Positions 10 to 42,858 of a DNA stretch of 64,000 bases are shown here, one piece after another. A model generated the notes under the pieces. The model searched no databases, was not told the DNA's origin, and saw only the letters and a list, made by a program, of their open reading frames with translations. Source of the stretch: Tomocerus qinae (taxonomy: Eukaryota; Arthropoda; Collembola; Entomobryomorpha; Tomoceridae). The translations under genes and the position numbers were made by a program. Where the stretch lies: assembly GCA_020055645.1 (NCBI GenBank), contig CM034546.1, positions 35,092,001-35,156,000 of the forward strand, in the 5' to 3' direction. Position 1 is the stretch's first letter. Every line of letters begins with the position of its first letter.

Positions 10-3000
10 ATGTCCGATCTCTTTTTGTGCATTGTAACTGCAGGACAAGATATTGAGCCCCTTTGAGTTGTAAGTCGAATTAGTCTGTAGTAAAATAACC
101 ATGTACTGCTTATACATACAAACTCCTATGATAACTTTTTAATGTGCCATACTGTATTATGAACGACCAATTATGCTGCACATTAAGAAAGTAATTTTGA
201 AATCTTTAGCTTATTGCATTTCTCTATTTGGTAAACTTTGGATATCTATACGAATTTGACAAAGACTACGTTGGAGTTGTCTTTTCTCCGCATGGTAAAC
301 TACTTGAACATGGAAACTACCCACCGTGGAATAACTACTCATTTCAGGAAGTACAGGATCTCCTGTCAGTTGTTTCAACACGATTCAGCAACATTTCTAC
401 GTATGGAATGGGAGTTACTAAAGGTAAGAAACAATTTTTATGCAAATTAATCAACAACAAGAAAATTTTAATACGCAATGAGTAATCAGTTTTCTAAACG
501 TATTTTACCTCTGAAACTTTCATGCAAATAAATTTTCCAGCATACACAAATTTTCAAGGTATATTACGGTTTGCATGCAATTGCAACAATTTTTGAGGAA
601 AACGTTAAAAAAACATTGAAATCACAGTAGATATAGCTGTTTAAGTATTGCCAGTCAGTCAGGAAGTTACACTTGCGGCTATTCGTGCAATGGTGTTGAA
701 TAATTTTAAGGAAAATTTATTAGAAATTAGAAACGCGAGCCTACAAATTTCCAGAAACATTTTAAAACCATTCTAGTTTTTTGTTGCGAGTTTAAAACAA
801 CAGGTGGCATTAGATTCAATTTACTTAAAATTTTATTTTTAATTCATTTGATAATGCGCAGTTGATGCCAAGTCTTGGGATGAAGGCGAAGCAGTTGGAA
901 TGACCGGCATGGCTGCCGCAAGGCTTAATGAGCAACACAATAAAACGTTGATACGTGCATGTCTTGGTGTTTGGCATCATGACGACCTAAAATTGAATGC
1001 TGAAATAAGGATGGCAGTAAAAGTAGCCAGAGAAGCAAATGAGATTCATGAAGGGACCGTTTGGGGCATTACACTGACTAGCAATTACATTGACAATTTA
1101 TCAAAGGCACAAAGAGTACTTGATTTGATAACTTTTACAAGAAACTTAACAGAATTCTATGGCGAAAGTATTCAAATAGGAACTCGTATCAACAATTGCG
1201 AGAAATTAACGCACGTGAACGGAAATGTAAGTTTTCTCAACGATGTAATGAAAAATGTTGACTACGTTTTGTGCTCCAAAATGCCATTGGCATGGGCTGC
1301 TAAGGCAAGTGTCAAGTATGCTATAGAAAATAATCTAGATGATACTTTCAAACAAACAAAAATTGCCATGAGGCGTATCAATCCAGACATATCGGTCATT
1401 TTTGAAACTGGTTGGCCAAGCCAAGGTATCAGTAACATTGGATTGCCAACAACAATTGATAACTTGAGAGATTACTGGGAAGAAATGGGTACTTGGGCAA
1501 AAACGAACAAATTCCCAATCCATATGTTTGAAGCATTAGACCAACCGTGGAAAGCCAACATGGACATTTTTATTGACCAGTTCAAGAAAACGCGAGACAG
1601 GGAAAGTCCTTTTGGTGTTTGTGGATCAGAAGCCCATTTTGGGTGGTGGAGACGGACAGACAATTACAAAGCAGATGCAACTGTCTATGTGGAAAAGATT
1701 ACAGGTTTAAAAACTGCTTTATTTTATTATTATTTTCAAGTACATGAATATTGAAAGTTATATTGACTGTGAGTTATTGATACAAACTTTGCACTGAAAA
1801 TATTGTAGTTATATTTATAATTTACAATACAAGCATAAAATTAACTCAAATATAAAACATTGCATTTCCTGTTTAATTTAAGGTTGGCCGTCTATTTTTC
1901 TTAAACCGATCCCTAATTGCCTAATTATTATTGTACTAATATGACGTACGAATTTGTTTTCCTTGTGGTTTTTCATAGTGGCAACTTGCAGCCTTCTTTT
2001 ACTATTACTGATACGTCTTCATAGCGATTTAAAATGTTATGCTAAATATATCCATAAATGTTTATGTTAAATTTCCTAGAACCGCAACGTCCAGCTTGTG
2101 ATGAAATAGGTGCAGCATTCGCCACCAGTTTGGTACTAGGACTTTCATTGGCTATAATCCTTTTAATCTCAATTGTTCTATTCTTGTATTGGCGTCTTCG
2201 GACAACAAAGGTAATCGGTTTTTAATAATTTTCATCATCTATCATTTGGACTAGTTTCCATTCAAAGCTATACCATACTACTATCGGAAAAGGTCGATAA
2301 TTGATTCTATATAAGTATTTTTCTTCGGCAGAAGGAACTACTATTGACAGAAAAAGAAATTGAAGAGTTCGAAAAAGGAATAGGAGAATTCGACGAAGGA
2401 AGCGAGCATACTGACCTTGCTTTACTACTTCCTTATGACCGCAAGTTTGAACTGGGGAAAGACAAGTTTAATATTGGTAAAATAAAAAAAGATATATTTA
2501 CCTTATTCTAAGTTATACTACTACTTGTACTTAAATAATAATGGCAATGAGTAGGTTCAGACTTGTTAATGAATGTAGTATTTTAAATCAGAAAATTATT
2601 TTGTAATTATTTCAATAATTAACAAACATTTTGGGTTTCATGCTTTCAAGATATTTAATGTCTAATGTAGCTTCCTTCCTTAATACATTTATTAGATCGT
2701 AATCGAGTTCTAGGAAGTGGACAGTTTGGCATTGTTTTCAAGGGAAAAATAGAAGGACAAAATCATAGTGTAGCTTTCAAAACTACAAAACCACGTTGCC
2801 CTGCCCAAAATTTCAAAAGCCTTTTAGCGGAAATAAAATTGATGATTTACATTGGAACGCATCCCAACATTGTTTGCCTCCTTGGTGCTTATACTGGCGA
2901 AATAAGAGAAGGTTTTAAATATAATGCTTTCGTGTATAGCTATATGTATATACCATACTATAATACATTCACGAGTTTCTGATTCATATTTTTTGTTTTT

Positions 3001-4431
3001 AATCCTTAAAATTCCAAAATAATAGCTTCAAAAATAATTTTCTTTTAATCATAATCCTAATTTGGTTAATTCACCTTAAAGAACGATAAAATATTTTAAT
3101 TTAATTATCAGGAGGTGTTTACATAGCTTCCGAATATTGTGCCTTTGGTTCCCTGGAGAAACTACTTCAAAGTATATCTGAAAACATGGTTCAAGACGGT
3201 TATGACAATTCAGTATCAGAAAAAAGCATTTATGCAAATAAGGAAGTCCAATTTGAAAGATATGTTAATACTCCCGCGTATGTAAAATTAATTTTGAAAA
3301 ATATAATTATAGTTTTCAATCCTTGTTAATTATTTATAAACAATTTTACGTGCTCTTTCTGAATTATAATTTTCCATAGCCCAATCACAGTTTTAAGGCC
3401 AGACTCAATTCTTGATGCATCAGTAATATTGTATAAGTTACCCAATCTAATAAAATGGGCTCACCAAATTGCAAATGGAATGACACACTTGGTATCAAAA
3501 AAGGTAAAACCTGATAAGCAACAATAATTTCTTGAAACTCTAATTTATAAATTTAAAACTCTGTAATTTTAAAAACTTCATTTTTGATACTAAACTTGAA
3601 TTACCTTAGGTTATTCATGCAGATTTGGCCGCCAGAAATGTTTTGATCACCGGAAATGGTATTGCAAAAATTACCGACTTTGGACTGTCTAGAAAGTTGT
3701 ATACTTACACAGAATACGTGAAACAAAATGAAGAACCCCTTCCTTGGCGTTGGATGTCGATCGAATCCCTTAAAAAGCTGTCGTTCTCTTCAGAAAGTGA
3801 CGTATGGTCTTACGGAGTGGTTTTGTGGGAAATATTTAGTTTAGGGGACGTCCCTTATCCAGGACTCGGTTGGGAAGTTGGTTTCGTTGACAAGTTAATA
3901 TCGGGCCTAAGACTTCAGAAACCTAAACATGCTTCAGATGACATGTAATACAGTAATAAAAGTTTAACCTAAAAATTTATTGGGTGGTTAAAGTTTAATC
4001 ATCCAATTAATTTTTAGCCATTTTAACCTTTAAACTAAATAGCCAATACATGCGCGTATATTGGAATTTGCTGTAAAAATTACAATTAAATTTACTTTCT
4101 GAGTTGCAAATACGCTGGCAATACGTTTTTCACTAAAAGTTTTATTAATTTTAACCCTTTTTTGTGTAACAATCATTGAGAACATAAATGGGGGAAAACC
4201 TACCACCTTATAATTTTTATTTAATTTTAGTACACAGTTTTACCACCCTAAAGATAAACTAATTAATTAGCTGAAAGAAAGAAATGCCAAGAAAGCCAGA
4301 AATGAAAGACAATTTTTAAAAATGTGAATGTCCTTTTCAGATATGAAAAAATGGTCAATTGTTGGAAACCTGAGCCTAAGGATCGGCCAAGTTTTGACGA
4401 ACTGGCTTCTTTCTTCAAAGAACTCTCTTGA
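10..4431 (+). CDS. Receptor tyrosine kinase with a GH17 (beta-1,3-glucanase-like) ectodomain
   Basis: Exons: 10-33 (tentative), 210-423, 862-1704, 2080-2210, 2332-2476, 2696-2911, 3112-3277, 3380-3503, 3610-3944, 4341-4431. All phases agree and give one frame of about 762 residues. Exons 10-33 plus 210 onward would encode a hydrophobic signal peptide. The ectodomain (about residues 30-355) reads as GH17: YPPWNNYSFQEVQDLL near the start, the nucleophile signature FETGWPSQG (Glu near 261), then FEALDQPWK and EAHFGWW. A transmembrane helix (about 375-398) lies in exon 2080-2210, followed by an acidic juxtamembrane segment. The kinase (about 453-760) has GSGQFG, the beta-3 Lys in VAFK (481), HADLAARN with catalytic Asp 626, DFG (644) and WRWMSIESL. 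It resembles the FGFR/VEGFR/Torso-like group and is probably active. The expected acid/base Asn-Glu pair reads Ser-Asn (about 153-154), so the glucanase is likely inactive. The kinase call is firm, GH17 is strong, and the first exon is weak. Confidence 0.88.
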
Positions 4432-11067: not shown

Positions 11068-13089
11068 CTAAGTTGTAGTTATTGTTTTCACTTTAAATCG
11101 AATTGGTTTTACTTGAGATTTAAAAGAATTGAACTTGGTTACCGTAACTTCTAGGCAGAGCGAAAAAAGTGCCAGAGCACAGACAATGACGAAAAGAATA
11201 AAAACGCCACCTAAGTTGTCAATACTTAGAGGTTTGATAAGGCTTGTTGATTTCTTGGCTATCAAAGCGGATAGTGCTTTATAAATTTTCCCATTTTTAT
11301 TCTGCAGCAGTTTATTTCTTCCTGCTTGCTTTTGTTGATTCAGGACATCTTCTTGCCACTTGACAATATTGCCAGTATCTCTCAGTATAGACGTAATTTT
11401 GCTAAAAGATTCCGTGTACAAAGAATTCTTTCTAAGTGCAAAAGTAAGAGCTGCAAAATTAGGCGAATCTTTCGAGATGTAAATAGGATCAAAATTTTGA
11501 TTTATCGTCAGCATCTTAGCAGACGTTGGTGGAATCAACCAGCCAAGACAAATATTTTTAGGCTTCAAGATAATTGAAGCTACACAAGCTCCTGGATCCT
11601 TTGTTAGTACGAATCTAGATTTAAGACTCCTGTACACGGGGTTCGGGCTGTTGTTAAAAAAGTTATATCCTACTCCATTTAGATAATGAAAATTCAGAGT
11701 GTAATCCTTTTTAAGGTATAACTCGTAAAAAGTTTTTGGAGTAGCCTCTTTATGTGGGAACGTCAAGAAGGAAACTAAATTGGTTTTGTATCCCATTCCT
11801 GTCATTACAACAAAAATCATCCACATTCCAGAAATGAGTTTAATTCCTTTTACTAATTTTGGCAATTTATTTCCTTGGTCAACAGAAATGGAAAACGCCA
11901 TGAAAAATGTTTGCCAAAAGATGAAACTAAATTTTTTATTTCTGAATTGATTTTGCCGGAGAATATAGTAAAAAACTGGAAATATTGTAATAAAAACAAG
12001 CAGAATTAGAAGCCAGACTTCTATAGAGTAAGGGTAAAGGACACCTGTCCATTTTGTAAACACTTCAGGATGCGCTGTGGCAAAAACAAATTTGTTGTAA
12101 GAAAGTTCTGAAGGATGATCCAGAATTCCAACCCGGTTTAATATTTTTCCATCAATAAGTTTTAAATCTTTTCTTCCACTTACAACTTCTCCAATAGATC
12201 CAGTCCATGTACCATTTTTTTGAAGTATTCCCATATTTTCAACTGTAAATGGAACTGGGTTGATATCAACTGTCATGTTATAATATTCAGCAGCAGAAAC
12301 CAAAGCCTTGTAGAAAATCCCAGCTAAAGTCTTATTATCTTCCAAATAATATATAAACGGTGCAATAATAAAAGAAGTAGTTGTTATATGAGAATTTCTC
12401 AAATTGAACCACGAATTTGAAAAAACTGGAACTTTTTCTATTATCATGACTGAGTTGCGCGTTTTTTTCAAATCACGCTTGCTGGTTAACAAAGCAATAT
12501 TTTTAGGATCGTCCTTAAAGAATCCAATTCCCATTTTCAATTTCAAAAGATTAACAATCGGATTCCGGGCAAGGAAAGAACTAATTATGGGTGTAGATCC
12601 TATGAAAATAAAACGATCACTTTGAGGTTTCCCAAAACAGTGAGGTCCTTTAGAGATTATAGCTTCCAGAATATCAAGCACAAAATTTCCATCTTGAGCC
12701 ACATGTAGAATTGCAAATGTCTGACAGAAAAAATTGAACTTTAAATATTGTCTGGATATTGTTAAACGTGAATTTTCTAATTCTGAATATGATTTACGAA
12801 GCATATTCATGGAATCTTTTTCTAAAACTGAAAGTGGAACGTACTGATCCTTGAAAAGTTTAAAATCAACCAAACGCAGTCCTGACAATTCTTCAGTCAC
12901 AAAAATAACAGAACAAAATTCGTCATGCTTAATAGCAGATAATCTAACTGTGTCATAAACTGTATCTGTGACTCTTTGATTCATTGGGTTCACAGCATCG
13001 CTTAGAGAAGACAGAAAAAAGATGCACAATAAAATATTTAAAAGCTCGTAGCACAAAATTTCATGGCGAATGCAAATTTCTAGTGGCAT
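11068..13089 (-). CDS. Divergent ionotropic receptor (IR), single exon
   Basis: An uninterrupted 673-residue ATG-started frame. It opens with a charged then hydrophobic signal-like segment (about residues 10-33), followed by a long extracellular part. The ion-channel core has IR order: TM1 around WLLILLVFITIFPVFYYIL, a pore-loop region around FWQTFFMAFSISVDQGNKLP, TM2 around MWMIFVVMTGMGYKTNLVSF, the second half of the ligand-binding domain, and TM3 near the C-terminus (GVFILFVIVCALALFSLCL). IRs are variant ionotropic glutamate receptors used in arthropod taste and smell. Intronless divergent IRs of about 600-700 residues are common, so length and structure fit. Which ligand it detects cannot be read from sequence. 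It is transcribed away from the next IR gene, 2.5 kb to the right. Confidence 0.85.
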   Translation of the reverse strand: MPLEICIRHEILCYELLNILLCIFFLSSLSDAVNPMNQRVTDTVYDTVRLSAIKHDEFCSVIFVTEELSGLRLVDFKLFKDQYVPLSVLEKDSMNMLRKSYSELENSRLTISRQYLKFNFFCQTFAILHVAQDGNFVLDILEAIISKGPHCFGKPQSDRFIFIGSTPIISSFLARNPIVNLLKLKMGIGFFKDDPKNIALLTSKRDLKKTRNSVMIIEKVPVFSNSWFNLRNSHITTTSFIIAPFIYYLEDNKTLAGIFYKALVSAAEYYNMTVDINPVPFTVENMGILQKNGTWTGSIGEVVSGRKDLKLIDGKILNRVGILDHPSELSYNKFVFATAHPEVFTKWTGVLYPYSIEVWLLILLVFITIFPVFYYILRQNQFRNKKFSFIFWQTFFMAFSISVDQGNKLPKLVKGIKLISGMWMIFVVMTGMGYKTNLVSFLTFPHKEATPKTFYELYLKKDYTLNFHYLNGVGYNFFNNSPNPVYRSLKSRFVLTKDPGACVASIILKPKNICLGWLIPPTSAKMLTINQNFDPIYISKDSPNFAALTFALRKNSLYTESFSKITSILRDTGNIVKWQEDVLNQQKQAGRNKLLQNKNGKIYKALSALIAKKSTSLIKPLSIDNLGGVFILFVIVCALALFSLCLEVTVTKFNSFKSQVKPIRFKVKTITTT

Positions 13090-15623
13090 TATTATTTTGC
13101 ATGTAACCGGGAAGGTTTAAAATGAAACTGTAAATTGAGAAAAACGCAAGAAATTTTGGTGAATTATCGTATTACTTAAAAAGAGTCTACTACAGCGCAC
13201 TGATAAACAAAACTGTACCCACGAATGATAATACATTTAATATTTCCCAAAATTAGAAAGGAAATTAAATAGGTATATCGAATACATTATGAAGTTTACC
13301 TCTATGCTTCTGATTTTAATCGCTACCCTAAAATGATCACTATCGCACGTAAATTGTAACCCAACCTTGATCCTTAATTAGTAGTATTTTATTTATTTTC
13401 AATGTATAATTGACACAAGCTGCAGATTTTTCCAGAGTGATTTTGTACAAATAAATTGCTAGTATTTTACCAATACAAGTATAAAAATTTCTTGTTATTA
13501 TTTCTGCCTTCTCGCGTTTATACAAAAGTCGTGGTATTTTACTGAACTTATTTTTCGCAAATTGTTTGAAATGCAATTAATGTATACTGCGAAGAGAAAG
13601 ACATACTGTCAGCGCTGGTAACTTTATTTTTGGTAGTCCATAGTTATCATTTAGGCTTTTGATAGGAGCATTTATTTAAGTAGTCTAATACCATTTAGTA
13701 CAGCACTGTCTGAAATCCATAATTTTCAGATAAGATAATTATGGTATTATTATTAAGACACTATAAGTATTAGGCATTAGGTCATATCATAGAAAAAGTA
13801 AGTAGGTAGTAGTGCATTTGTGATTGTGATGATGGGTCGATAGCTAATTAATATTTGAGTATAATTGATTTTTTACAAGGTGAGGTTGCATGAACAATGC
13901 TATTTTAGGATCGTAATACTTACAACCAGGAAAATTAATCTGTGGATAAAAGTAGAAATTATCACATTCATTAAAAATTGCATGTCTACTTAACTTGTTA
14001 ATCAGAGGCTAATTGAATAACTTTGTACTATATATCTTATTGCTTGACGCGTTTGTAAGTATCTGCGTCTTCCATAAAATTATATAGGTATGTACACAAA
14101 ATGGTACTTATAATAATCTAATCTATTTACGTATATTATTATACTTATAGATATATTTAAAAATGGGACAGGTTAGGAAGATATTAGCTTAGCAACCTAA
14201 GGAAAAGGAATACATACAATAGAGTTTAAATGACCAAAAATGTCATTAGAAATTTAAAAATTCGTAAAGGTTTGTAAATTTGAAAATATACCGCAGTGAC
14301 TAATGACTTGTTTGACCACTGAACCTCCAAAGATGCCAAAATATTACTAAATTTAACGTAAGTAGCCTGGAGAATTTTTATTTAGTATTAGTTGTTAAAT
14401 TAGTATCCTGGCTAACAATTTCCCTATTGGAAATATGTTTATCATTTACTATTTTTTGGTCTATATTCAGGGAAGAGAAGCTCGTGAGATGTACCCCGAA
14501 ATTTAGTCTTTTAAACCTATCTCCCAAATTTGCTTATTACCTATTTCAATAGAAGAGAATCTAGTATGTTGCAAGGATGGAGAAAGGCTGTATCCATACG
14601 TTCAGTTTGGTATAGAAATTATCCACTATATATTTTTAGTTTGGTACAGGATAATGTGAAGTGTCCACTTTTCCTAGTATGAATAGTAGATGAGGTAGAA
14701 GACGTTAAAGAAGAACAATCCTTCCTATACATTATTAATTTTCTATTCCATCAGGTCTTCCTTCATCAATCGATAATTAGCAATAACAATTAAGATGAAG
14801 TACTTACACATGGAAAAATAGAGCATTCGTGACGATTTTAATTGTTTCAACCGTAAGTAAGGTTTTATAGTTTTAGTGTCGTCGTTTGACAAGTTAATAT
14901 TTATCATGACTTAGATAACTTGTATTAGGTACCTATTGGAATAAGCAGATATACTACTTTTTGCAGCTTTCTTCTGTATTTATTTTATGTATGTATGTAG
15001 ACTTTTTTCCTTCAGCAGTTTTGATAGTTTTAAATTCTATACTTAAAAAATGTCTGTAAGTTAAATGTTGAACACAAAAAAGCAGTCAGTTTCCTAAATT
15101 CCTAAAAGTTCATGGAAATATTCTCTGTTATTAATCAAGCTAGTATTTCCCTTGGTTTTCTTTAAATTAAAAATTAGCATTTACTTACGAAGGGTATTAA
15201 AAACTAAAGGTAAGAGCTTTTTCGTTAGCAATACATAATAAATAAATATCACATTAAGTTAAAAAGCATGAGTTGCTTTCCGTTTATGAATATTTCACCG
15301 ACAATAATAAATTAGTATAAGACTTCACTGCTGCAGTCTTTTTGTTCTGTCTTCAATTTAAAATATATTGTAATAGTAGTTCAGGTTAAGGTTGGATATT
15401 TATTCTGCTCTAAAATTCATAAAATCCGTATACCTTCAATCTTACGAAGCGTAGGAATTCAAATTTAAAATATAATACTCTCCGACGTTTTCTTGAAGAC
15501 TTTTTAAAAAATAAGAAATCGGTTAGTGATTTTCGATTAGCAGAAATAACCGAAAACCAGCATAAATAGTCAACCAAAATTTATGATAAAATAGAACATA
15601 ATCATAATTTGATTCAAATAGAA
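13090..15623. other. Intergenic spacer between divergent IR genes
   Basis: AT-rich sequence with no frame that looks coding and no clear repeat. It must hold the promoters of the two diverging IR genes. No convincing TATA box decides a start on either side. Confidence 0.6.
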
Positions 15624-18071
15624 ATGACTAAATTTGTAGTGTTGATCCAATTTATATTTGGATTTTGTATATGTTGGGATTTGAAAAGCATTGCTTATTT
15701 AGAAAGTGATTGTCATATAAATCTTGTTTTCCAGCCAAAGACTTTTACAAACATTTTGGATGATTCATTGAATGGTCAATTGCAAGAAATAAATATTCCT
15801 TTTGGATTAACAAAACTGGGGACTAGTAATAACAATTGTGATAAATATGAAGCAACTATACTTTACGGTAGCCCCTACTGTCGTTTTTCAAAGAGCCAAA
15901 AGAAATTGAAACGTTCTTCTCCATATTCCCTGGATCGATATGTTTGTTTGGCGTACATAGTGGTAAATTTCGTTAGATCATCAGAAGATGAGATGAAAGT
16001 AATTAATTACATAAGTGACACGTTTTCTAACGACCAATATATTTACCAAGCACAGAAAATGAATTGGGCTCCAAAATATAATTTTGAGGAACATACTTCA
16101 GTTTATCTACTTATGGAGAAAAGCACCATAGAGTTAGTTAAATCAGGCAAAAATATTTTTAGCGTCTCCGAGGATAGCCAACGTGCAATACTACATGCAA
16201 CTCGTATCTATCGTCTTTTCTACCGCAAATCTTGGTTTATTCTGTCGGACGATGAAAACGATCCTTTTGTATATTTTATCAATGTACAGGTAATAGGAAG
16301 TGTATTTGTCTTCTTATCAACTTTAAAGTATTGAATGGTCCCTTTGTGCTCACAAAAAAATTGTTTTGGACAAAATATGCGTCGACTAGCTGGGAAAAAC
16401 TTTTTTGCAGAAAGCAACATTGCAACTACATCAGGATTGGTAGTTAACACTTTTGAATCGTTTTGGAATCAAGGTGCAAGAGAAGTAGAAAATTGTGGAC
16501 CACCAATAATGAAAACTTCATTTACAAAATATTTCCCTCTAGCAGAATTTGGTCCATATATTCCTATAACTTCAATGATGTTTCAATCCCTTCCTAATTC
16601 TACTATTGTAGTTGGAGATTGTTTTGATAGTAATAATTATATGGAGATATTTTTTCAAGTAGAGAGCATCGAAGGAGATCCTTCTGGTGCTCATTTAATA
16701 TTGTTTCCTACAAAAGAAGATTCTGTCAATTTTATTTCTTGCGTTGTTCTGGAAGAAGGAAATCTTTCCTTTTATGGATATTTTCAACCGTTTCAATTCC
16801 ATGCTTGGCTTGCGTTACTCATTTCGATTGTCATTCTAATTACATTTGTACATGGTGTCACATTTTTTAAGAAAGACAAAGAAATTTCTATAACTTTCAT
16901 GGTTTGGGCATATTTATTGGAAATTAGTTATTCATCACTGACTAATAAAGCTACGTGGATCAAAGTGATAATTGGTCCATTGTTATTAATGTTTATTGTA
17001 GTAACAAATGGATACAAGGGAATTGTCACCACGGATTTAGTTGAGCCACGTCCAGTCAAAAAAATTGAATCGATGGAACATTTGGCTAATTTATCTGGCA
17101 TTACTGCTCTCAGTGAGATTTATTATAACTATGGCGACGATCCTTTCAACGTTCCTAACAATATTCTTGAAATGATAATCGGTAGAACAGAGTTATACTA
17201 CAATCAAAACTGTCCAAATTTGAGAGATGTCAATTGCGATTATATAAGTGGATTTAAAGGTAATTTTTCGTTGGAAAATGTACAGCAACGAAAAGATGAT
17301 CGTGCAGTTATTCATGCCATTAATAACGGCCGAGGAAATTATGACAACCTTTTATTTAATTTGCGAAATATGTTACAAACGATGCTTGATCTGCATAAGA
17401 AAACAATTAGTGTAAAAATGTCTAAAATTATCAAAGCAATTTTCAAAAAAAATCAAATTCCAATTGGATTTACTTACACCAGTCCTCAGAAATGGATTTC
17501 GCAATGCAATCAATCTGTATTTATTATCAGAAGTTCTCGCTTGCATTTGACTTTTAATGACTCCCATTGGAATCCACAGATTGGCGGTGTTCGCCCGATC
17601 AGAAAATTATATCAGGGAAAGGATGATACTCACTTCTTCCCTCTGTACGTTTATACTTATGTTAGAAATCGGGAAATGCCCATGTTCACTACTTTCTTGA
17701 AAGAAAAATTGTTTGCTGTTACGCAATCAGGACTTCTCCAATTATGGTTAGACCATTATAAAACACTCAATTATACAAAATGCAGAAAATGTTGGGAAAG
17801 AACTCTACCCCGTCCTATAACCTTTAATAATTCAAAAATCGGGACAATATTTTATATTTGCTCTTCTGTAGCACTCATTTATGCTGCCGCGTTTTCATTT
17901 GAAAATCGTTGGTACATAAAGAACAAAATCATTAAATTTTGGTTTTATATTCGTAAGATTTCTAAAATTGTACAACACAAAGTTAGTACTGGAATTCTGT
18001 TTTTAATTAATAATATTCGACGAAGCAGAAAAAATTATGCCCAGAAAAAGGTCCAAAGGCTTTCACGCTAA
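15624..18071 (+). CDS. Divergent ionotropic receptor crossed by one in-frame UGA
   Basis: The likely start is ATG 15624 (MTKFVVLIQFIFGFCICW, a signal peptide). The frame runs to a UGA at 16332-16334 and continues in the same frame to 18071. Together the two parts span 815 codons plus the stop, a little long for an IR. The downstream part has TM1 (HAWLALLISIVILITFVHG), a short pore region, TM2 (VIIGPLLLMFIVVTNGYKGI), an extracellular lobe with cysteines and TM3 (IGTIFYICSSVALIYAAAF). No GT-AG intron with correct phase that removes the UGA was found: a GTAATAG donor at 16290 has only out-of-phase acceptors nearby. The UGA sits where Trp would suit (TLKY, stop, MVPLC). Options are a recent pseudogene allele, stop-codon readthrough, an unseen intron or a base error. 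Everything else is intact, which argues for a young lesion or a functional stop. Confidence 0.75.
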
Positions 18072-19753: not shown

Positions 19754-20361
19754 ATGAAGACTATTATCGTAATAACCCTAATGGTATTTTCAGGTACTTT
19801 ATTATCTACTAAATATTAAAACCTTAAAATAAATTCTATAAATTTTGTAGCATAAATATTATTCAATCTAATAGATTTCTCATTATAATTAATATGTTGT
19901 TATTTACTATTAATTTTTATATTAATAATGTTTGCATAGTTACAATCGAATGTACATGTGAATATCGAGCATGGAAGCACCCAGGTAAAGTGCGTGAGAA
20001 AAGAAATAAGGAATTGGTTCTCGAATTTTACCAGAGACTTTTCGGAGATAAAGATTTTAGCGCTATTGACGAGTTCCTGGGAGACCCTTACATTCAGCAC
20101 AATCCTCTTGTTAGAGATGGTAAAGAAGGGTTAAGAGAATTTGCTCAAACAGCGCTGAAGGATGAACCGAGACAAAGACTGGACATTAGACGGGTGGGGG
20201 CTGATGGTGATCTAGTCTGGATTCATTTGAGAATGAATCTTTTTGGAAAGGAAAATGCTATTATGGACGTTTTTAGGGTTGAAAATGATAAAATTGTGGA
20301 GCATTGGGATGTAATCCAAGAAGTGCCAAAAACATCTCTGAACAATAATACAATGTTTTAA
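19754..20361 (+). CDS. Secreted SnoaL-like (NTF2-fold) protein
   Basis: Two exons, 19754-19793 and 19940-20361, joined by a phase-1 GT-AG intron of 146 bases, give 153 residues. The first exon encodes MKTIIVITLMVFS, completing a signal peptide that ends near the Cys residues in ECTCEY. The mature part is a single SnoaL/NTF2-like domain: KELVLEFYQRLFGDKDFSAI, a YIQHNPL motif, a predicted strand-rich half (DLVWIHLRMNLFGKENAIMD) and the family ending VFRVENDKIVEHWDVIQEVP. This resembles bacterial predicted SnoaL-like aldol-condensation-type proteins, whose enzymatic role is mostly unproven; the His in IQHNP and the EHWD end are family hallmarks. A bacterial-looking domain behind a eukaryotic signal exon suggests horizontal transfer followed by secretion, but this is inference. 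Confidence 0.8.
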
Positions 20362-22779: not shown

Positions 22780-24183
22780 TTAATTACATTGCCACTGCAC
22801 CAACTGATTATAATCGTGACTCCTGCCTGCAGTCAGGTCTAAGCATTTGCCAGTTCCAACATTCAAAATATAACCGTTAGAGTGATACCATTGTAAACTT
22901 CGGTCTTGGGAGTTGCAGTTCATTTGAGCAATATATACGCCGTCACATGAAGATGCATGTGGAGGTATACCGATACATTTCCTTGTTTTTACTTCTTTAA
23001 GTTGAAAAAAACTTCCAATTTGAACTCGAATCCATCGCTGGTTTGTTCCGCCATGGCACTTATGTTGTATAATCGGGTTGTGAGCCTGTGTATATCCTCC
23101 AAGGTTGTCAACGCACTTGCGCGTAGTTGCATGCCTTATTTCAAAAACTGCACCATCATTGTCGCCACCGACAACCGTCATCGTCCACTGTTGGTTTGGA
23201 TTGGCTCGTGACTGATTATTTTGCAGTGTGATTTCACCAATATCAAAAGCTGTTTAATAGAAACATATGTGTTACAAGAAGTTTGTACATACCGGACGTA
23301 TGTAAAATGCCTAGGATATATGTAAAGTGGAAATCCAAAATTTTGACTTTTAACGAACCTTACCTAATTTAAATCAACCAAATTTACATGAAGTACATTT
23401 TACAACCATTAAGTTGTTCTGAATTAGGTTAGTTTCGTTAAAAATCAAAATTTTGGTTTTTTTACTTTACATATATCCTATTCTTTTTGCATATGTCCGG
23501 TCTGTACAAATTTCCTGTAACATATCAAAAAAATAACTTCATCGTTCATTGGCGCATACTACGTTTCGTTTTTATATAATTTTGGAATAGGAACCATATT
23601 ATGGCAGACAGGGGAAGTTAAGGTAAACTTCCCGGGAGATAGATTCCCAGAGACTGATTTATTGCCCAAAGCAGACTTATGGAAGACTTAGCAATGAACC
23701 TTAGGACTACTTGCCATAGGAATTTATTTGTAGTTTTTGGTTGAGTATATTATTAGTGGGTTATTACTGCTATACGATTTGGCTGTATCATAGAGGCTTT
23801 CGTGAGTTTCCTGAGGAATCTATGGCGTAAATATCTAATAAAGGGCCCGGCTATCAGGGATATCAAACATTGAGTTACTTTATGGCGTGACCGAGAAAAG
23901 TTCCAAAACTCAATTTTACGGTATCTCCTTAGCTATCATTAACTACTGTCCTATATATATTCCCGATTTAGTAATCAGAGTTGCAGTACAGATAAAACAA
24001 AGTATTTACACAAATGACTAAATCCACAATAATTCTTAATACATGCCTAAGGCCAAACAAGTAAAATGGATGAATTTTCAACAATTTTTCAAAATCTAAA
24101 TTATAAATTTAAATCTTACCATTGGCACCCAAAATTACTTGCAAAAGTAACCCAACGGAGTAGCTTTTTAAACAAAATTTCAT
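22780..24183 (-). CDS. Secreted ricin-B (beta-trefoil) lectin
   Basis: Two exons on the minus strand, 24183-24120 and 23249-22780, joined by a phase-1 GT-AG intron, give 177 residues. The first exon encodes MKFCLKSYSVGLLLQVILGA, a clear signal peptide. The rest is one ricin-B lectin domain with the three expected subdomains: NPNQQW then RKCVDNLGG, TNQRW then RKCIGIP, and RSLQW then GKCLDLTAG and NQLVQWQCN. The repeated Q-x-W and C-(I/L/V)-D signatures are visible, with paired cysteines in each lobe. Such domains bind galactose/GalNAc-type sugars and occur alone or at the end of GalNAc-transferases. No transferase domain is present, so this is a free lectin, possibly digestive, defensive or cuticular. 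The intron carries a foldback element. Confidence 0.82.
23266..23526. mobile_element. Foldback MITE in the lectin intron
   Basis: Two arms of about 105 bases (23266-23372 and 23422-23526) are inverted copies of each other. Shared strings include aggatatatgtaaag, ccaaaattttga and tttgtaca. The arms match at roughly 80-85 percent by eye with small indels, around a spacer of about 50 bases. No coding capacity. A transcript of the lectin gene would fold here into a long hairpin. Confidence 0.75.
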
Positions 24184-27385: not shown

Positions 27386-28314
27386 TTACTGTGGTTGTGG
27401 CTGGGAAATCGTAGTGCACATAATGGTGATGCAGGTTTGTGTTAAAGCCCGGCCATCACTGAGTCTTGATCCTGTGTTGAAGATGATATTGGTTTTTCCC
27501 AAAATAATTCCGACAGTAGTACATCTAGAACCAACTGCTACAGTACCGGCTGATACCCAGAAGATATTTATCCCTCTCACACCGTTATTCAGGAGTATGC
27601 GGGTATTATCATTAAAAGTAAGCCCTCCATCAATTTGGAAAATAAAAACATCCGTAGAGCTCCCGGATAATGTCACAGTTCCACTGACAGTCAACGATGT
27701 CGTCCATTTGTAAAGCCCTGGACTCAGCACGATTCCATTAATACTTCCAGATGCGTGATCTGTAAAATCTGGGTCGCTGCGGCCGATAGCGTCATTGTAT
27801 GCTGCTTCAATATCTGATGCTGTCTAGTTATGAAGATAAATCAATGTCCATATTTTAAACAATTGCAGATGACATTTTTAATTTCGAGAGATCATTTTGA
27901 CAGAAACTGAAATTTTGTCAAAATTTCGTAAAATAAACCTGAATCCATATTATGTAAATTATTGAAATTCTATTCCCCGATATATTTTAAAATGCTTACT
28001 GTTAACAATGAGGAAGGTGTAGGAATGGCATGTCCTGATGTGTAAATTTTTCCAGTGACAATATTTGATGTTGAATAAGTTCTGTCATATGATAGCGCTA
28101 AACCAAATCCCGAAATCGTCGATGATGCCGTAGACCGTAGGCCTACATTTCCCTTTATGGTAGTACTTCCCTCTACCGTAATGGCAGAGCTTGCAAAAAT
28201 GACATAATTAGCAGCTGAACCTAGATTAACTGGTCTTTGTGCAGAGTGTACTTGAGAACTTTGCAATAACAAAACGGTTATGGCTCCTGTGATAATGAAT
28301 CGGATAGTTGTCAT
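27386..28314 (-). CDS. DUF3494-type ice-binding protein, secreted
   Basis: Exons 28314-28000 and 27823-27386 join at phase 0 (donor GTAAGC, acceptor ending ctag) and encode 250 residues. ATG 28314 gives a signal peptide (MTTIRFIITGAITVLLLQSS, cleavage near VHSA). The mature part matches the DUF3494 fold throughout: VNLGSAANYVIFASSAIT, TIKGNVGL, the AYNDAIGR and PDFTDHASGSINGIVLSPGLYKW helix and cap region, LSGSSTDVFIFQIDGGLTF, GINIFWVSAGTVAVGS, then VGIILGKTNIIFNTGSRLSDGRALTQT. These form a right-handed beta-solenoid, with ice contacted by its flat Thr/Ser-rich face. The family is widespread in psychrophilic bacteria, fungi and algae and patchy in animals, so acquisition by transfer is likely. 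The intron and signal peptide show it is a host gene rather than contamination. Length is typical of single-domain members. Confidence 0.92.
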
Positions 28315-28423
28315 TACAATTACCCGAAAATCACAAACCAATAGGATGTTTGAATAAAGTGTAGTTAAAATTGCTTTAGTTGAAACCTGAGTTGTGCTAT
28401 GTACGTAATACAGCGAATATATT

Positions 28424-36620: not shown

Positions 36621-38516
36621 TTAATAATGAATAATTTCCCTCCAAATTTTGAAAAAGACAATTGTGCATGCTATAAAGTGGCAACTAATTTCTAACAAAA
36701 AAGCGATGGCAGAAGTAGCAATTAGATAACCACATAAAATAAAAATTGTGTGAATTTTCATGTGGAGGCCTACTGCTTGCGGGTCATTGTGATTGGTTGG
36801 GAGGTACTCAGACAAAAAAGGCAGAGAAGTCTGATAGTAATATTGTTGCTGCCACAATGTCAGTAGTCCCCTTTCCCTCAGTAGATGGAAATATGCTTGA
36901 AATTGAAATCGATAATAATATATAAAGAGATGAGACACAGGATTTCTAGTAGCTGTCGAAACTGTCGTCATGCAAATTGCACCTGACTGTTTTTGTATTG
37001 AATACATAGTTACTTCAGCGTTTCGACTATCTATTAAGTCGAATAAGAACAGCGATACGTTGGTCACTAGCTTTCGCCTTAATTCTATCATTAATTCAGG
37101 TTGATTCTTAATGTACTTTGAATTATCATCATCTAAATCAACTTGGAAAATACCCGATTGCATCCTATTGTAAATTCCACGTTTGGTAAATAATATAGAA
37201 TTCGCAAACTCATCTCTTTCAACTCGTAGTAATTTATAATTATTACCAATTAGTTCATTGAAATCCCAAAACCTCTTTTTATCGGGCGGAGCGATGATTT
37301 CGCTTGTAATATAATCACCATAATATGTAGTAATTACCATTGACATCAGTATTACAATTAAATACAAAATATTCCTCCGTTTCCCGTTGAGAACAGACTG
37401 ATCCAAAAGAACTGCAACAGATGACATCATGACTAGTCCCAGTTTTCTGAAAAAAGGAAAACTCTCTCTCATTCCAAAAATTAGTACAAAAAATGAAATC
37501 GGAAACAAGAGACCAATGCACAGCCAAGAACGATTATCGAATGTGTTCTGAATTAGAACTGTCATCGAGACAGCATAAAATTGTGATTTTGCTTCACAGT
37601 AGAATGGAATCAAATCTTTATAGCCATCATTAAATGATAATAGTAAAGGGTAGAGGTCGTTGTTATGATTTTCGGAATTCATGACGATCTGACCACCGTT
37701 ATGACTTTGAGATACCATCCTTTTAGAATAAAATGCAGTGAAATTCAATTTTTCAGCCATTGTTTCCACAGCTCGAAAAGAAGGGCCGCAGCTAATTAGT
37801 TTTGTCTTCATTTCATCATAGATGGATTTCCTGCAATGGGGTAGATTTATTTCAATGTTGAATTGCAACTCATTTGAAATGCTTGCAATAGGAGATCCAT
37901 GGAGATGACCGTTGAGAGAATGCCAAATTTTTTCCCAATCTTTTTCTGACGTTTCTGAATTTATTTGGACGAACTTACTACTATCGTCACTTGTGTAAAG
38001 TTGCAGAGTGCCAATGGCAATTTTAATTTTCGTTGCATTTTGAATGATCATTAGAAAAACGGGAGCGACTAATTGTCCCCTTAAAAAATTGAGCCAACTT
38101 TGTTCAATAATTGGCTTTTGACGTATATCACTTATAATTATAGATGTGGAAAGGTAAAGCTTATTCAATGATCCTCCAATTATATCGATTCCAGTAAAGA
38201 AACTATTGGGCTGCATTAGGATATTTAGGCGACACGTCCTTTTGGATATATCCCAAAGATCAGGCTCATACTCCTCTCTTCCGTAAAAAAATTCCACGGT
38301 CCATGGCTGCAAGTGTTGATTTGCCAATATAAAGTCCGTTTCCCAGTTCTCCCACGTTTCCCACAATCCTAACATAGGGCTATAAAACCTAATCAAATTA
38401 AAATCGCAGTTTTTATAAAATGATAAAGATAAACTTCGAACGCTGTTAATAGTTTTCAAAGTATTAAATATCAATACTATTGAAATACAGAAACTGTAAA
38501 ACTTTGAAAAAGCCAT
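36621..38516 (-). CDS. Divergent ionotropic receptor (IR), single exon
   Basis: 631 residues from ATG 38516, uninterrupted. Signal-like start (MAFSKFYSFCISIVLIFNTL). After the extracellular region with CRKSIYDEMK come TM1 (WLCIGLLFPISFFVLIFGM), a short pore loop, TM2 within YLIVILMSMVITTYYGDYIT, the second lobe, and TM3 (IHTIFILCGYLIATSAIAFL). The order and size are those of arthropod divergent IRs. It differs a lot from the two IRs at 11-18 kb, so this is a loose cluster of old duplicates rather than a recent tandem. Ligand unknown. Confidence 0.83.
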   Translation of the reverse strand: MAFSKFYSFCISIVLIFNTLKTINSVRSLSLSFYKNCDFNLIRFYSPMLGLWETWENWETDFILANQHLQPWTVEFFYGREEYEPDLWDISKRTCRLNILMQPNSFFTGIDIIGGSLNKLYLSTSIIISDIRQKPIIEQSWLNFLRGQLVAPVFLMIIQNATKIKIAIGTLQLYTSDDSSKFVQINSETSEKDWEKIWHSLNGHLHGSPIASISNELQFNIEINLPHCRKSIYDEMKTKLISCGPSFRAVETMAEKLNFTAFYSKRMVSQSHNGGQIVMNSENHNNDLYPLLLSFNDGYKDLIPFYCEAKSQFYAVSMTVLIQNTFDNRSWLCIGLLFPISFFVLIFGMRESFPFFRKLGLVMMSSVAVLLDQSVLNGKRRNILYLIVILMSMVITTYYGDYITSEIIAPPDKKRFWDFNELIGNNYKLLRVERDEFANSILFTKRGIYNRMQSGIFQVDLDDDNSKYIKNQPELMIELRRKLVTNVSLFLFDLIDSRNAEVTMYSIQKQSGAICMTTVSTATRNPVSHLFIYYYRFQFQAYFHLLRERGLLTLWQQQYYYQTSLPFLSEYLPTNHNDPQAVGLHMKIHTIFILCGYLIATSAIAFLLEISCHFIACTIVFFKIWREIIHY

Positions 38517-39102
38517 AGCTGTTTTAGAATTATAGCAAATATGTCAGTGGAACTAGATAAGTCGAGTAGTTATATTATAATCAACATAAAAGTTGCCTAT
38601 CATAATCAATAACTGCTTTCTTCTGGAAGGAATCGTTAATAGTGACAAGTTCAAAACATTAACAAAGCTAACACTAACAAGAACCAGACGAGAATATATT
38701 ACTGTCCTTGAATAAAATATTTAAGGACGAATGTTCATTTGTACTACTCTAAGTTTTCATATTGTTAAATGCAAACCAAGATATACTAAGTAGAATTAGT
38801 TACCACCCTGCATAATAATAATTTTGGGATTCGACAAAACTGAACACAGGCACGCAAATTACGATTGATTAATTGCGATTAATAATTTTAAAAAATTATG
38901 TAGAGTTAAATGGTTTAATTTCATATCATCAAACATAGTAGGTACAAAAAATATCTTTACCATGAGAACATGACTTATATTGTATTAATCACTACATTTA
39001 AGTAAGACTTTATTCGCTTATTCCCCTCCATCATATGCATCATTCTCGTTCGTTATAATCTCTATATTATAACCACAGACTGAGATAAACCAATAAATTT
39101 AC
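38517..39102. other. Intergenic spacer
   Basis: AT-rich, with the presumed promoter of the third IR at its left end; nothing else recognised. Confidence 0.5.
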
Positions 39103-39439: not shown

Positions 39440-40212
39440 CTAGACGCCTACCTTTCTAAAGCACAATATCCGGAATTACGGTTAATGTTCGGCCCTATCA
39501 AAAGATGTGACTGCAAAAGTTTATAGTGCTGAAATTTTTTGTGCTTGATGCGTACATATTCAAGCGCCATATATGTAGGAATTAGCTTGTTCCTATCTCT
39601 CAAACTTGAGTAATTAATTTTTTAAGATGACAACTTTACTGTGTATTGTAATAGGCAAATAAATATTCTGAAACAATTAATTAAAAAAAACACATACTGC
39701 AAGGTCCAAACCACATGAAATTTGTGTCAGTCAGAGATTACATATTGGTAAAGAACATATGTAAGTTTTACGATGTTCCTATCTCTAGTTTCGAAAATAT
39801 TGCTGTTGAGGCTAACTTTTAGCTTAGCTTTCATACATTTTATATGCACATAAAGCCACAAGTCAATTTGGATTGTGCTTATCTGATAATGACGTCATAA
39901 ATCGTCAAGTTAGCCATAAGCATTTCTGATTTTTAGTTACCATAGTCAAAATAAAACTCAAATGTATCTTTTGTAATCTGAAACAACTATCTACAAAACA
40001 TTTTGACTCAACCAACCAATTTCAAAGTCCTTTCTTGTCATTATGCGTTTTGCATTTGTTCTGCAAACATTTCGAGCGTTTCGCTGAAATATTTAATTAT
40101 TTCAATTCTACTTGTGGTTTTATACCGTGTTTTATTCAGTTTTATCTAGTTTATCAGTACTTTAGTGTTACTTAAATAAGTATTTTACTAATAATCGTCT
40201 ACACTGGAGAGG

Positions 40213-42858
40213 ATGCCACATTTTTATTGTGCCCTGTGTGAAGTGAGGAAGAATTCAAACCTAAGAAAGTTCTCGGTCACTATCGATAGTTTGAAAATAC
40301 CTCTGGCCAACTACTATGCAAGAAATGGAATCGGACCGAAGTATCATTTGACTTTAAACGATGTAATCTGTTCCACCTGTCATGTCAATTTATGCTTTGG
40401 AAGACATGTACCAGTCCCTCGAAGGATGCAAGGCCAAGATGGTAATCCTACCCAAGGTTCCTATATGTTGGAAGGTGGTGATCCTACCCAAGGTTCGTAT
40501 ATGTTGGAAGGTGATGATCCTACCCAAGGTTCCTTAATGTTGGAAGGTGATGATCCTGCACAAGGTTCCTATATGTTCGAAGGTGATGATCCTACCCAAG
40601 GTTCCTACATGATGGAAGGTAATGACACATCACAAGATTCATATATGATGCAGCCAACCGATGGTTTGATGGACAAGTTCAATATGTCAGTGACTTCAAA
40701 CGTGGATCATAACATGAATGTCATTACCTGTGGGAGTCAAAACATGAATCAAATTGAAAACGCAAGAACGTATAAAGGTATTATGATAGAGCAATTACCA
40801 ATAACGATTTATCCAAACAATATAGTAGATTCACAGGCCACAACCGTTTCAGAAGATAATAGTCAAATGTGGTCAATTACAAATACCTCACAAGAATCGG
40901 GTCTCAATTTAAGCATGACCATGGCGTCAAATGAAGATGACTTTTCTCGCTTTTCACAAGCATCAACTTCTTCTTTCTCGGAATCAGCTACTTTTGCTTT
41001 TCCTAAGCCAGTCGTTAGAATTGATTTTCCAACTTGCTCAAGTACGATGAACAAATGTTTCATCTGTAAAAACGTAACCAACGGTAGGAAAACCATCCCA
41101 AAGGATGCAATCATTGATTGTTTTTATCGAAAAGGAATTCTAGTGCCATTTACAAACAGATGTTGCAGCGGCCATGTGCAAAATGGTGTATTTACCAAAC
41201 AATCATTAGACAGCATTGTTCCTGAGAAAGATAGTTTACTAATTACTCCGTCAGACATATCTTTGTTGCTGAGCACTTTATCAGCTAATGGGCAGACAAA
41301 GCCATTAATAAACTTCGATCAAGGGTGTTCATACACAAGTTTCGACTATAAAAATTTAACGGGCTTAACAAAAGACAATTTTGATCATTTGTACACATTT
41401 GTTAGTCCTCATCTCAATAAAAGTAGTAACCGTAGCAAAAGAAATGCACTAGGATTGTTCTTAATAAAGTTGAGGACAAACATCAATCAAGCGATACTTG
41501 CAATCTTGTTTGGATATACCAGTCAAGGCAGAGTCAGTGAAACTATAGATTCGGTCAGAAATGTCCTAGATAAATATTTCGTGCCCAATTATCTAGGATA
41601 TGAACACATTACTAGAGAAGATGCTTGTACACATCATAAATCTAAATTCGCTGACTCACTTTTTAATACAAATGCAACTTCATTATGTGTAATTTGCGAC
41701 GGCACTTATATTGACATAGAAAAACCGTCGGATCATTACGATCAAAAGAAAACGTATTCAGGTCACAAATTGAAAAATCTTGTGAAGCCCATGATGGTTA
41801 TATTTCCAACAGGATATATTTTGAATTGCGTTGGTCCCTATTTTGCAGACGGGAAGAATAACGATGCCAACATTCTGAAGTCAATGCTAAATGACAACTC
41901 AGCCACAGGTTTTAACAGTTTTTTTCAAGAAAATGATGTTTTCATTTTGGATAGGGGTTTCCGTGATTGTATTCCAGATTTACGGGCTAAAAATTTTCAA
42001 GTTCATTCTCCCGCTTTTCTTAAAGCAAAGCAAAAGCAACTGCCTACTGAAGAAGCAAATCAAGCTCGTATTATAACCATGATTCGTTGGATAGTGGAAT
42101 CAAGAAATGGGCATTTAAAAAAATTTAAGCTTGTGGGTGGTATCAGTCGAGCAACAACTGTAAGAAAGATCGGGTCCTATCTTCGCATTGTATGTGCTGT
42201 AATTAACGCATATTCGGGAAAATTTAACTTGGACAGTGAATACCAAATGAAAATTGCAGATAAGGCACTAACTTTACTCCATTCTAAAAACGAGTTACAA
42301 ACAAACATTGAAGAGATATGGCAGTTAGAAAGAAAAAAAGTATGTTGGGAGCGTGCATCTAACTTCTCAGTTCCTGAATTTCCTAGACTGTCTGTTTCTG
42401 ATATTAAAAATATCACATTAGGTACTTATCAGAAGGATCAGGCAATGTATTATACAAGACGTCATTTAAAAAATGATGGAAGTTTTACTTTTTACGTTCA
42501 CAAAGATATGCCTACGTTAATTAGAGCCAAAATTGATTCACGTCATAAATCTGCAACAAAACACCAAGTTTGGATTCAATTCGATAATTTAAAACAGGGA
42601 GAAGAATCAATTTTAGGTTGGTATTGTAAATGCCAGGTTGGATCGCGTACAATTGGATGCTGCAGTCATATAGCAACTATCATGTGGTATCTTGGCTACA
42701 CTAGGCACTGCGAAAACGACCTAACATTACAAAAGCATGCACTTTCAGACCACATTCTGGATGCTGCGCAACTGTTGGAGATGCAGTTAGGAGAGGAAAG
42801 AGTCGTTGATGATATTCCACATTCTTCCGATGCGAGTGATTCTGATAATGATGAATAG
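40213..42858 (+). CDS. DDE transposase with N-terminal zinc fingers and C-terminal SWIM finger
   Basis: 881 residues, one uninterrupted exon from ATG 40213. N-terminal cysteine pairs (FYCALCEVR, VICSTCHVN) form a probable DNA-binding finger. Residues about 75-145 are six 12-residue repeats. A second Cys/His module (KCFICKN to RCCSGH) precedes a helical region and the DDE_Tnp_4-like catalytic core: Asp in VICDGTYIDIE, Asp in FILDRGFRDC, Glu in IVESRNGHLKKF. Near the C-terminus, WYCKCQVGSRTIGCCSHIAT matches the SWIM pattern CxCx(n)CxH, followed by an acidic tail. Transposases of the ISL2EU/Harbinger group cut and paste DNA. Fusion of SWIM to the DDE core is noteworthy. The intact frame with all three catalytic residues suggests a young element or a domesticated gene. 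Confidence 0.78.
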   Translation: MPHFYCALCEVRKNSNLRKFSVTIDSLKIPLANYYARNGIGPKYHLTLNDVICSTCHVNLCFGRHVPVPRRMQGQDGNPTQGSYMLEGGDPTQGSYMLEGDDPTQGSLMLEGDDPAQGSYMFEGDDPTQGSYMMEGNDTSQDSYMMQPTDGLMDKFNMSVTSNVDHNMNVITCGSQNMNQIENARTYKGIMIEQLPITIYPNNIVDSQATTVSEDNSQMWSITNTSQESGLNLSMTMASNEDDFSRFSQASTSSFSESATFAFPKPVVRIDFPTCSSTMNKCFICKNVTNGRKTIPKDAIIDCFYRKGILVPFTNRCCSGHVQNGVFTKQSLDSIVPEKDSLLITPSDISLLLSTLSANGQTKPLINFDQGCSYTSFDYKNLTGLTKDNFDHLYTFVSPHLNKSSNRSKRNALGLFLIKLRTNINQAILAILFGYTSQGRVSETIDSVRNVLDKYFVPNYLGYEHITREDACTHHKSKFADSLFNTNATSLCVICDGTYIDIEKPSDHYDQKKTYSGHKLKNLVKPMMVIFPTGYILNCVGPYFADGKNNDANILKSMLNDNSATGFNSFFQENDVFILDRGFRDCIPDLRAKNFQVHSPAFLKAKQKQLPTEEANQARIITMIRWIVESRNGHLKKFKLVGGISRATTVRKIGSYLRIVCAVINAYSGKFNLDSEYQMKIADKALTLLHSKNELQTNIEEIWQLERKKVCWERASNFSVPEFPRLSVSDIKNITLGTYQKDQAMYYTRRHLKNDGSFTFYVHKDMPTLIRAKIDSRHKSATKHQVWIQFDNLKQGEESILGWYCKCQVGSRTIGCCSHIATIMWYLGYTRHCENDLTLQKHALSDHILDAAQLLEMQLGEERVVDDIPHSSDASDSDNDE
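40433..40648 (+). repeat. In-frame 36-bp tandem repeat in the transposase gene
   Basis: Six copies of a 36-base unit encoding variants of GDDPTQGSYMLE. The first four are nearly identical at the DNA level and the last two have drifted. Their near identity implies recent slippage or unequal exchange. Confidence 0.9.

Follow-up and report, generated by a model that had tools for sequence, protein, structure and literature searches.

The 64,000-nucleotide stretch of the Tomocerus qinae genome analysed here (hereafter the window; assembly GCA_020055645.1, contig CM034546.1, forward-strand positions 35,092,001 to 35,156,000) opens with a gene for a receptor tyrosine kinase (RTK) with a new class of ectodomain, a barrel of glycoside hydrolase family 17 (GH17). 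The first-pass annotation had placed a GH17 ectodomain, a transmembrane (TM) helix and a tyrosine kinase in a single gene, and in-frame exons, profile matches and recurrence at paralogous loci bear this out; we regard both the GH17-TM-kinase architecture and the existence of a multigene family as close to certain. The ectodomain is, judging from its active-site residues, very probably a pseudo-enzyme that has lost catalysis. We lean towards the view that the family as a whole comprises receptors with a catalytically dead, horizontally acquired GH17 sensor that would bind glucan.

The gene model (Table 1) consists of nine exons on the + strand between positions 210 and 4431, which splice to a frame of 754 residues closed by a stop codon and free of internal stops; the eight introns between them are all GT-AG, and an AG lies directly 5' of 210. 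Residues are numbered throughout on this 754-residue model, which is incomplete at its 5' end. All three motifs singled out in the first-pass annotation (FETGWPSQG, FEALDQPWK and EAHFGWW) are present; the start that it assigned at base 10 is unsupported, because the ATG there meets a stop at 64-66, and coding support starts at 210. Under a small splice-site model fitted to seven introns of the gene, the acceptor before 210 falls in the top 2% of AGs in the window, and we therefore conclude that an exon further upstream is missing from the model; the hydrophobic stretch in exon 1 looks like the tail of a signal peptide. No upstream signal-peptide exon was found at the window gene or in the paralogues examined. 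A first exon at 173-230 followed by a 34-base intron would give a good-looking signal peptide but was rejected for its poorly scoring acceptor, and one at 142-153, though possible, has no support.

Taken alone, the ectodomain matches the Pfam profile PF00332 (Glyco_hydro_17) at 30.2 bits (E 4.7e-7; cut-off 28.2), whereas the identical match scored within the whole protein reaches 27.7 bits, slightly below the cut-off. No other family matched the ectodomain in Pfam up to E 10, neither immunoglobulin (Ig) nor GH16. A structural comparison with an AlphaFold model of exon 2 (exon 1 was not in the model) gave beta-glucanases or related enzymes as its 10 top matches; 4wtp and 6fcg are labelled GH17 in the output, and the remainder we take to be GH17 as well. 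The predicted fold of the ectodomain is that of the GH17 (beta/alpha)8 barrel. A single hydrophobic segment, residues 361-395, lies between ectodomain and kinase, a TM exon occupies the corresponding place in the paralogues, and six N-glycosylation sequons suggest that the ectodomain faces the extracellular side.

The cytoplasmic half, in its turn, matches the Pfam family PK_Tyr_Ser-Thr at 249.6 bits (E 4.1e-74), so that a profile check upholds both halves of the protein. The kinase is of the PDGFR/KIT/VEGFR type, with an LPYD juxtamembrane motif and a split domain carrying an insert at residues 536-588, and the best match spanning the entire cytoplasmic part is PDGFRA. The earlier claim of a complete tyrosine kinase domain holds for the catalytic Lys, Glu, Asp, Asn and DFG (K473, E490, D618, N623 and D636), and Y649 is also present; the exception is the Arg of HRD, which is Ala. 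The three tyrosines of the insert (547, 557 and 567, encoded within 3112-3503) all stand in YxN motifs, whereas none of the 12 other cytoplasmic tyrosines does. YxN is the preference of the GRB2 SH2 domain.

When the 334-Mb assembly (115 contigs, the window being C1:35092001-35156000) was searched with PF00332, 11 matches were obtained, the window gene counted. The sequence examined comprised about 10 kb around each of the 11 matches, a stretch adjoining locus L098 and another, short one within the window. With the window protein as query, tblastn placed GH17, juxtamembrane and kinase exons in the same order and on the same strand at the window, L092, L098, L099, L100 and L101, and a tandem gene beside L098, designated L102 and found only as L098's neighbour, is a further locus with the GH17-TM-kinase order, so that the genome holds at least seven receptor loci. 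Ectodomain identity to the window gene is 41-42% for L099-L101 and 37-39% for L098 and L102. L092 (C1:35318501-35328400), a 98% copy of the window gene 229 kb away, has open ectodomain exons (ratio of nonsynonymous to synonymous substitution rates, dN/dS, 0.05 against the window gene) and a broken kinase, with a stop in the insert and a shortened exon 8; it is a pseudogene or a decoy. The kinase of L099 is also broken, with DCG instead of DFG and a stop within the WRWM stretch. The remaining loci, L093-L097, are stand-alone GH17 genes with no match to the window's kinase within the stretches examined; one of them, L097, is on the strand of the L098 receptor gene, about 2.6 kb past its 3' end, which places an enzyme gene beside receptor genes.

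The GH17 and kinase exons of the window could in principle belong to two neighbouring genes, one for a secreted GH17-like protein whose frame closes with the stop at 1752-1754, the other for a kinase that begins with Met 2058 and has almost no ectodomain. Although the exon-2 frame is open to 1754 and there reads EKITG, where a springtail enzyme has EKSTG near its C-terminus, although a Met lies in frame at 2058, and although the donor at 1704 (GTTTAA) is non-canonical, that donor ranks second among the GTs of the span and the acceptor at 2080 first among the AGs of 1705-2200 under a model built from the gene's seven other introns, and no AATAAA, ATTAAA or AGTAAA occurs within 1705-2080. The GH17-TM-kinase order also recurs in diverged paralogues, which makes this one gene and not two unrelated neighbours, and its recurrence at seven loci excludes chance juxtaposition. 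In an automatic scan the GH17/TM junction is a phase-1 intron followed by Glu-Pro at five of the seven loci, the window counted; at L099 the scan chose an acceptor 8 bases further on, while the same AG precedes AACCAGAG, and L101, where the exon-2 donor is GC, was not placed by the scan, its TM exon reading alike by eye. Apart from that GC, the paralogue donors at this junction are GTAATT, GTATTC and GTAAAT. On the strength of the paralogues and splice junctions we dropped the two-gene reading, which we judge highly unlikely.

The active site also separates the receptors from the stand-alone enzymes. Across 69 homologues the acid/base column holds Glu in 67, Lys in one and Gln in one (P0067), as against Asn (N146) in the window gene; the column corresponds to the Glu of the GNE motif in the distant GH17s P0069 and P0070, and also in the solved structure 6fcg, that stretch of the 6fcg alignment alone scoring only 4.8 bits. 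Within the genome the residue is Asn in all seven kinase-linked ectodomains and the catalytic Glu in all five stand-alone GH17 genes, a division which also argues against the two-gene reading. The conserved Asn preceding this position (N145) is Ser in all seven receptors and kept in four of the five stand-alone genes, the NxYP motif reads SKMP, FKNP or FKNQ in the receptors, and in the homologue alignment the conserved cleft positions changed in the window gene include 210 (Asn to Ser) and 212 (Tyr to Met). The nucleophile Glu (E253 in ETGWP, aligned with the residue altered in the active-site mutant 4wtr), GWP and D(E/Q)PWK are nevertheless kept in seven of seven receptors. Because the seven receptors are of common origin, the change from Glu to Asn was probably one event and not seven.

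These residues bear on the notion of an active enzyme-receptor, in which the ectodomain would cut glucan and couple the cutting to signalling. The fold and the retained nucleophile would suit it; however, with the acid/base Glu and its neighbouring Asn replaced in every receptor, the ectodomain is more likely to bind than to cut, and we give the enzyme-receptor very little credence. Nor does the altered domain appear to have been set free from selection: dN/dS of the ectodomain was 0.05-0.27 in the seven pairs tried (interdependent pairs, one of which, window-L100, approaches saturation at dS 2.5), and these low values indicate purifying selection. For the kinase exon the L102/L100 pair gave 0.05, the silent changes of other pairs being too few or saturated. 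It would thus be surprising if the family consisted of decaying remnants or decoys with little signalling role, as the stops and truncation in L092 and L099 and the GC donor of L101 might suggest, since in addition no stop or frame break was seen inside the aligned exons of the window gene, L098, L100, L101 and L102 (full paralogue models were not assembled); we consider this explanation improbable in the extreme.

Regarding the origin of the domain, first homologue searches returned nothing, but a later one brought up relatives with about 30% identity, and the early null therefore stems from a limitation of the method and does not indicate absence. The best early match was a Fischerella plasmid protein (29.8% identity over 91%, E 4e-35), and querying with this protein and the ectodomain gave a set of 68 homologues. 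Seven of these carry an organism name, six cyanobacterial and one, P0062, from the springtail Orchesella dallaii; P0063-P0068 are called springtail-type from clade membership. P0062 is a secreted arthropod GH17 in the sister group of the receptor ectodomains, but differs from them in standing alone with its active-site motifs intact. In a tree that includes the genome's own genes, the seven receptor ectodomains form one clade (100/99) adjoined by P0067 (95/93), an environmental protein with Gln in the acid/base column that is the closest outside relative in the tree and may be a receptor of like kind from another species. Receptors and P0067 join the springtail-type enzymes, all five stand-alone genes included (98/97), then P0051 (100/100), and the whole group lies within cyanobacterial-type GH17s. 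The stand-alone genes L093-L097 make up an animal GH17 family of cyanobacterial type. When P0067 was left out, the window gene stayed with the springtail-type enzymes and P0051 (Shimodaira-Hasegawa-like approximate likelihood ratio test, 100), its inner position being open.

Because the receptor ectodomains are nested among cyanobacterial-type GH17s, horizontal transfer is the likely source, and the GH17 gene was probably gained in this way. A genome scan gave, among the best 80 loci listed, four matches at E <1e-50 (Coleofasciculus, Rhizonema, Hassallia and Nostoc), below which the listed matches drop to weak and mostly partial ones; a scan of viral contigs for relatives gave nothing. In the data searched the nearest relatives of the ectodomain are springtail-type secreted and cyanobacterial GH17s, not fungal or plant ones. 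A fungal or plant origin is accordingly not supported, the strong homologues found being cyanobacterial- or springtail-type in data with thinly sampled eukaryotes; given that thin representation, a eukaryotic intermediate may have been involved. The rarity of GH17 in animals, also asserted earlier, agrees with a 2025 paper whose authors knew of no GH17 documented in animals before plant-derived genes of whiteflies (PMC11800479, in excerpt, as are the other PMC sources below). The secreted whitefly GH17s are arthropod proteins too, but plant-derived (PMC11800479), and the springtail lineage appears to be separate.

The most likely course of events is the following. A horizontally acquired cyanobacterial-type GH17 gene would have duplicated, with some copies remaining stand-alone enzymes and another being fused to a receptor of PDGFR/KIT type, from which the TM helix and split kinase derive; the sensor has lost its acid/base Glu and other active-site residues while retaining barrel and nucleophile. 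Such an ectodomain would most likely bind glucan chains or oligosaccharides of fungi, algae or cyanobacteria without cutting them; a multivalent, polymeric ligand would cluster receptors, clustered kinases would trans-phosphorylate, and the YxN tyrosines of the insert might recruit GRB2-like adaptors leading to Ras/MAPK. Direct sensing of beta-1,3-glucan by the receptor is plausible. We consider the chances evenly balanced that an animal RTK class has been made from a domesticated bacterial-type glucanase whose dead lineage serves an expanded receptor family as its ligand-binding half, directly converting the presence of environmental or microbial glucans into tyrosine phosphorylation, and, from the sequence, the case for a glucan-type ligand seems about as strong as the case against it.

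The ligand is the weakest step of this mechanism, and a different one is a serious rival. The barrel may be a scaffold for an endogenous peptide, another glycan or a cell-surface partner, acting in development or immunity unrelated to beta-glucan; the further cleft changes (N145 to Ser and the altered NxYP) and ectodomains that are constrained yet diverged, at 37-42% identity between subgroups, are what this would lead one to expect. Retention of the nucleophile Glu, GWP and D(E/Q)PWK in every receptor would be unexpected in an abandoned cleft, however, and the arthropod beta-GRP/GNBP proteins, noncatalytic descendants of glucanases, provide a precedent for recognition of beta-1,3-glucan (PMC2375007). 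We hold the other-ligand explanation to be possible, if the less probable one. Returning to the receptor family with a dead, glucan-binding sensor, several points weigh against it. Glucan affinity may have been lost because other conserved cleft positions changed besides the acid/base Glu. HRD is HAD in six of the seven loci and degenerate in L099, and kinase activity is likely, not certain; two of the seven loci (L092 and L099) have a broken kinase, and L101 has its GC donor. L098, L102, L100 and L101 lack a Tyr at position 547, and positions 557 and 567, although Tyr in L098 and L102, are not aligned in L100 and L101. Long-branch warnings accompanied the trees, at P0067 and between the two groups in the one with the genome's own genes, and in approximately unbiased tests on a tree without the paralogues other placements of the window gene were not rejected (p 0.056, 0.105 and 0.084). 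The 5' exon and signal peptide are missing from the gene model.

Among the matches listed, the open-licence literature contains no GH17 receptor tyrosine kinase. Class III/V RTKs (PDGFR, KIT, VEGFR) share the single TM helix, the LPYD motif and a split kinase with an insert; the known members have Ig-type ectodomains, whereas the window gene has a GH17 barrel, no Ig and HAD for HRD. Of the other comparable proteins, beta-GRP/GNBP are of GH16 type and secreted, and EphA2 and EPHB2 carry an ephrin-receptor ectodomain. Like the window receptor, beta-GRP/GNBP are glucanase relatives without catalytic residues that recognise microbial glucans (PMC2375007), but they belong to another glucanase family and have no kinase. 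EphA2 and EPHB2 are animal RTKs for which recognition of fungal beta-glucan has been reported (PMC12176286; EphA2 by the title of a reference), with an ectodomain unrelated to glucanases. Since a beta-glucan response of EPHB2, and of EphA2, has already been reported, a glucan-sensing RTK is not new, while the ectodomain is; and since arthropod beta-GRP/GNBP help to detect beta-1,3-glucan and a mammalian Eph receptor is reported to bind it, the sensing logic has precedents. Tobacco CHRK1 and other plant GH18 receptor-like kinases likewise fuse a glycoside-hydrolase ectodomain to a kinase (PMC5485988), but the ectodomain is a chitinase-type GH18, predicted to be enzymatic according to the excerpted part of that review, and the kinase is a plant receptor-like kinase, not an animal tyrosine kinase. 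Finally, OLD-1 and FLOR-1 of C. elegans (KIN-16 family) are also members of a lineage-specific RTK family, needed for the oomycete response, and differ in that the abstract of PMC10523662 mentions no GH17 ectodomain. The T. qinae genome would show an animal making a new receptor class from an enzyme that is probably foreign, enzymes that appear to be active coexisting there with inactivated receptor forms; it offers a testable case of enzyme-to-receptor conversion and a possible direct route from glucan to tyrosine kinase in an arthropod.

Table 1. Exons of the GH17 receptor tyrosine kinase gene and the intron at the GH17/TM junction (window positions).
Feature	Coordinates	Strand	Content
Exon 1	210..423	+	N-terminal part of GH17 with beta-1 strand YVGVVFSP, preceded by a hydrophobic stretch
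Exon 2	862..1704	+	Most of the GH17 TIM-barrel ectodomain; TSNY, acid/base Glu replaced by Asn; nucleophile Glu in ETGWPSQG
Intron, phase 1, between GH17 and TM exons	1705..2079	+	Position, phase and following Glu-Pro common to paralogues
Exon 3	2080..2210	+	Juxtamembrane EPQRPACDEIG and the sole transmembrane helix
Exon 4	2332..2476	+	Cytoplasmic juxtamembrane piece, LLPYDRKFEL, PDGFR/KIT-like
Exon 5	2696..2911	+	Kinase N-lobe: LGSGQFG, VAFK, alpha-C Glu
Exon 6	3112..3277	+	Hinge and kinase insert with three YxN (YDN, YAN, YVN)
Exon 7	3380..3503	+	End of kinase insert and alpha-E
Exon 8	3610..3944	+	Catalytic loop HADLAARN (Arg of HRD replaced by Ala), DFG, activation-loop Tyr, WMSIES
Exon 9	4341..4431	+	End of C-lobe (CWKPEPKDRPSF) and stop codon

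Elsewhere in the window, two open reading frames (ORFs) at 27389-28422 (-) match complementary parts of the Pfam Ice_binding profile (125.8 and 42.4 bits) and are probably one ice-binding-like gene split by an intron. A single open frame at 51560-52870 (+) encodes a 436-residue pyridine nucleotide-disulphide oxidoreductase that shares about 42% identity with bacterial homologues over 95-100%, and one of these homologues carries the annotation NADH-quinone dehydrogenase; by its sequence this is possibly a bacterial-type gene. A SnoaL-like protein (56.9 bits) is encoded at 19828-20361 (+) and a Ricin-type beta-trefoil lectin (69.7 bits) at 22783-23253 (-). Long ORFs at 11071-13116 (-), 15570-18071 (+) and 36624-38543 (-) are ionotropic-receptor-like by eye; only the first has a Pfam match (Lig_chan, 44.3 bits), and the second is interrupted by a stop at 16332-16334. 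An 887-residue ORF at 40195-42855 (+) is DDE_Tnp_4 transposase-like.

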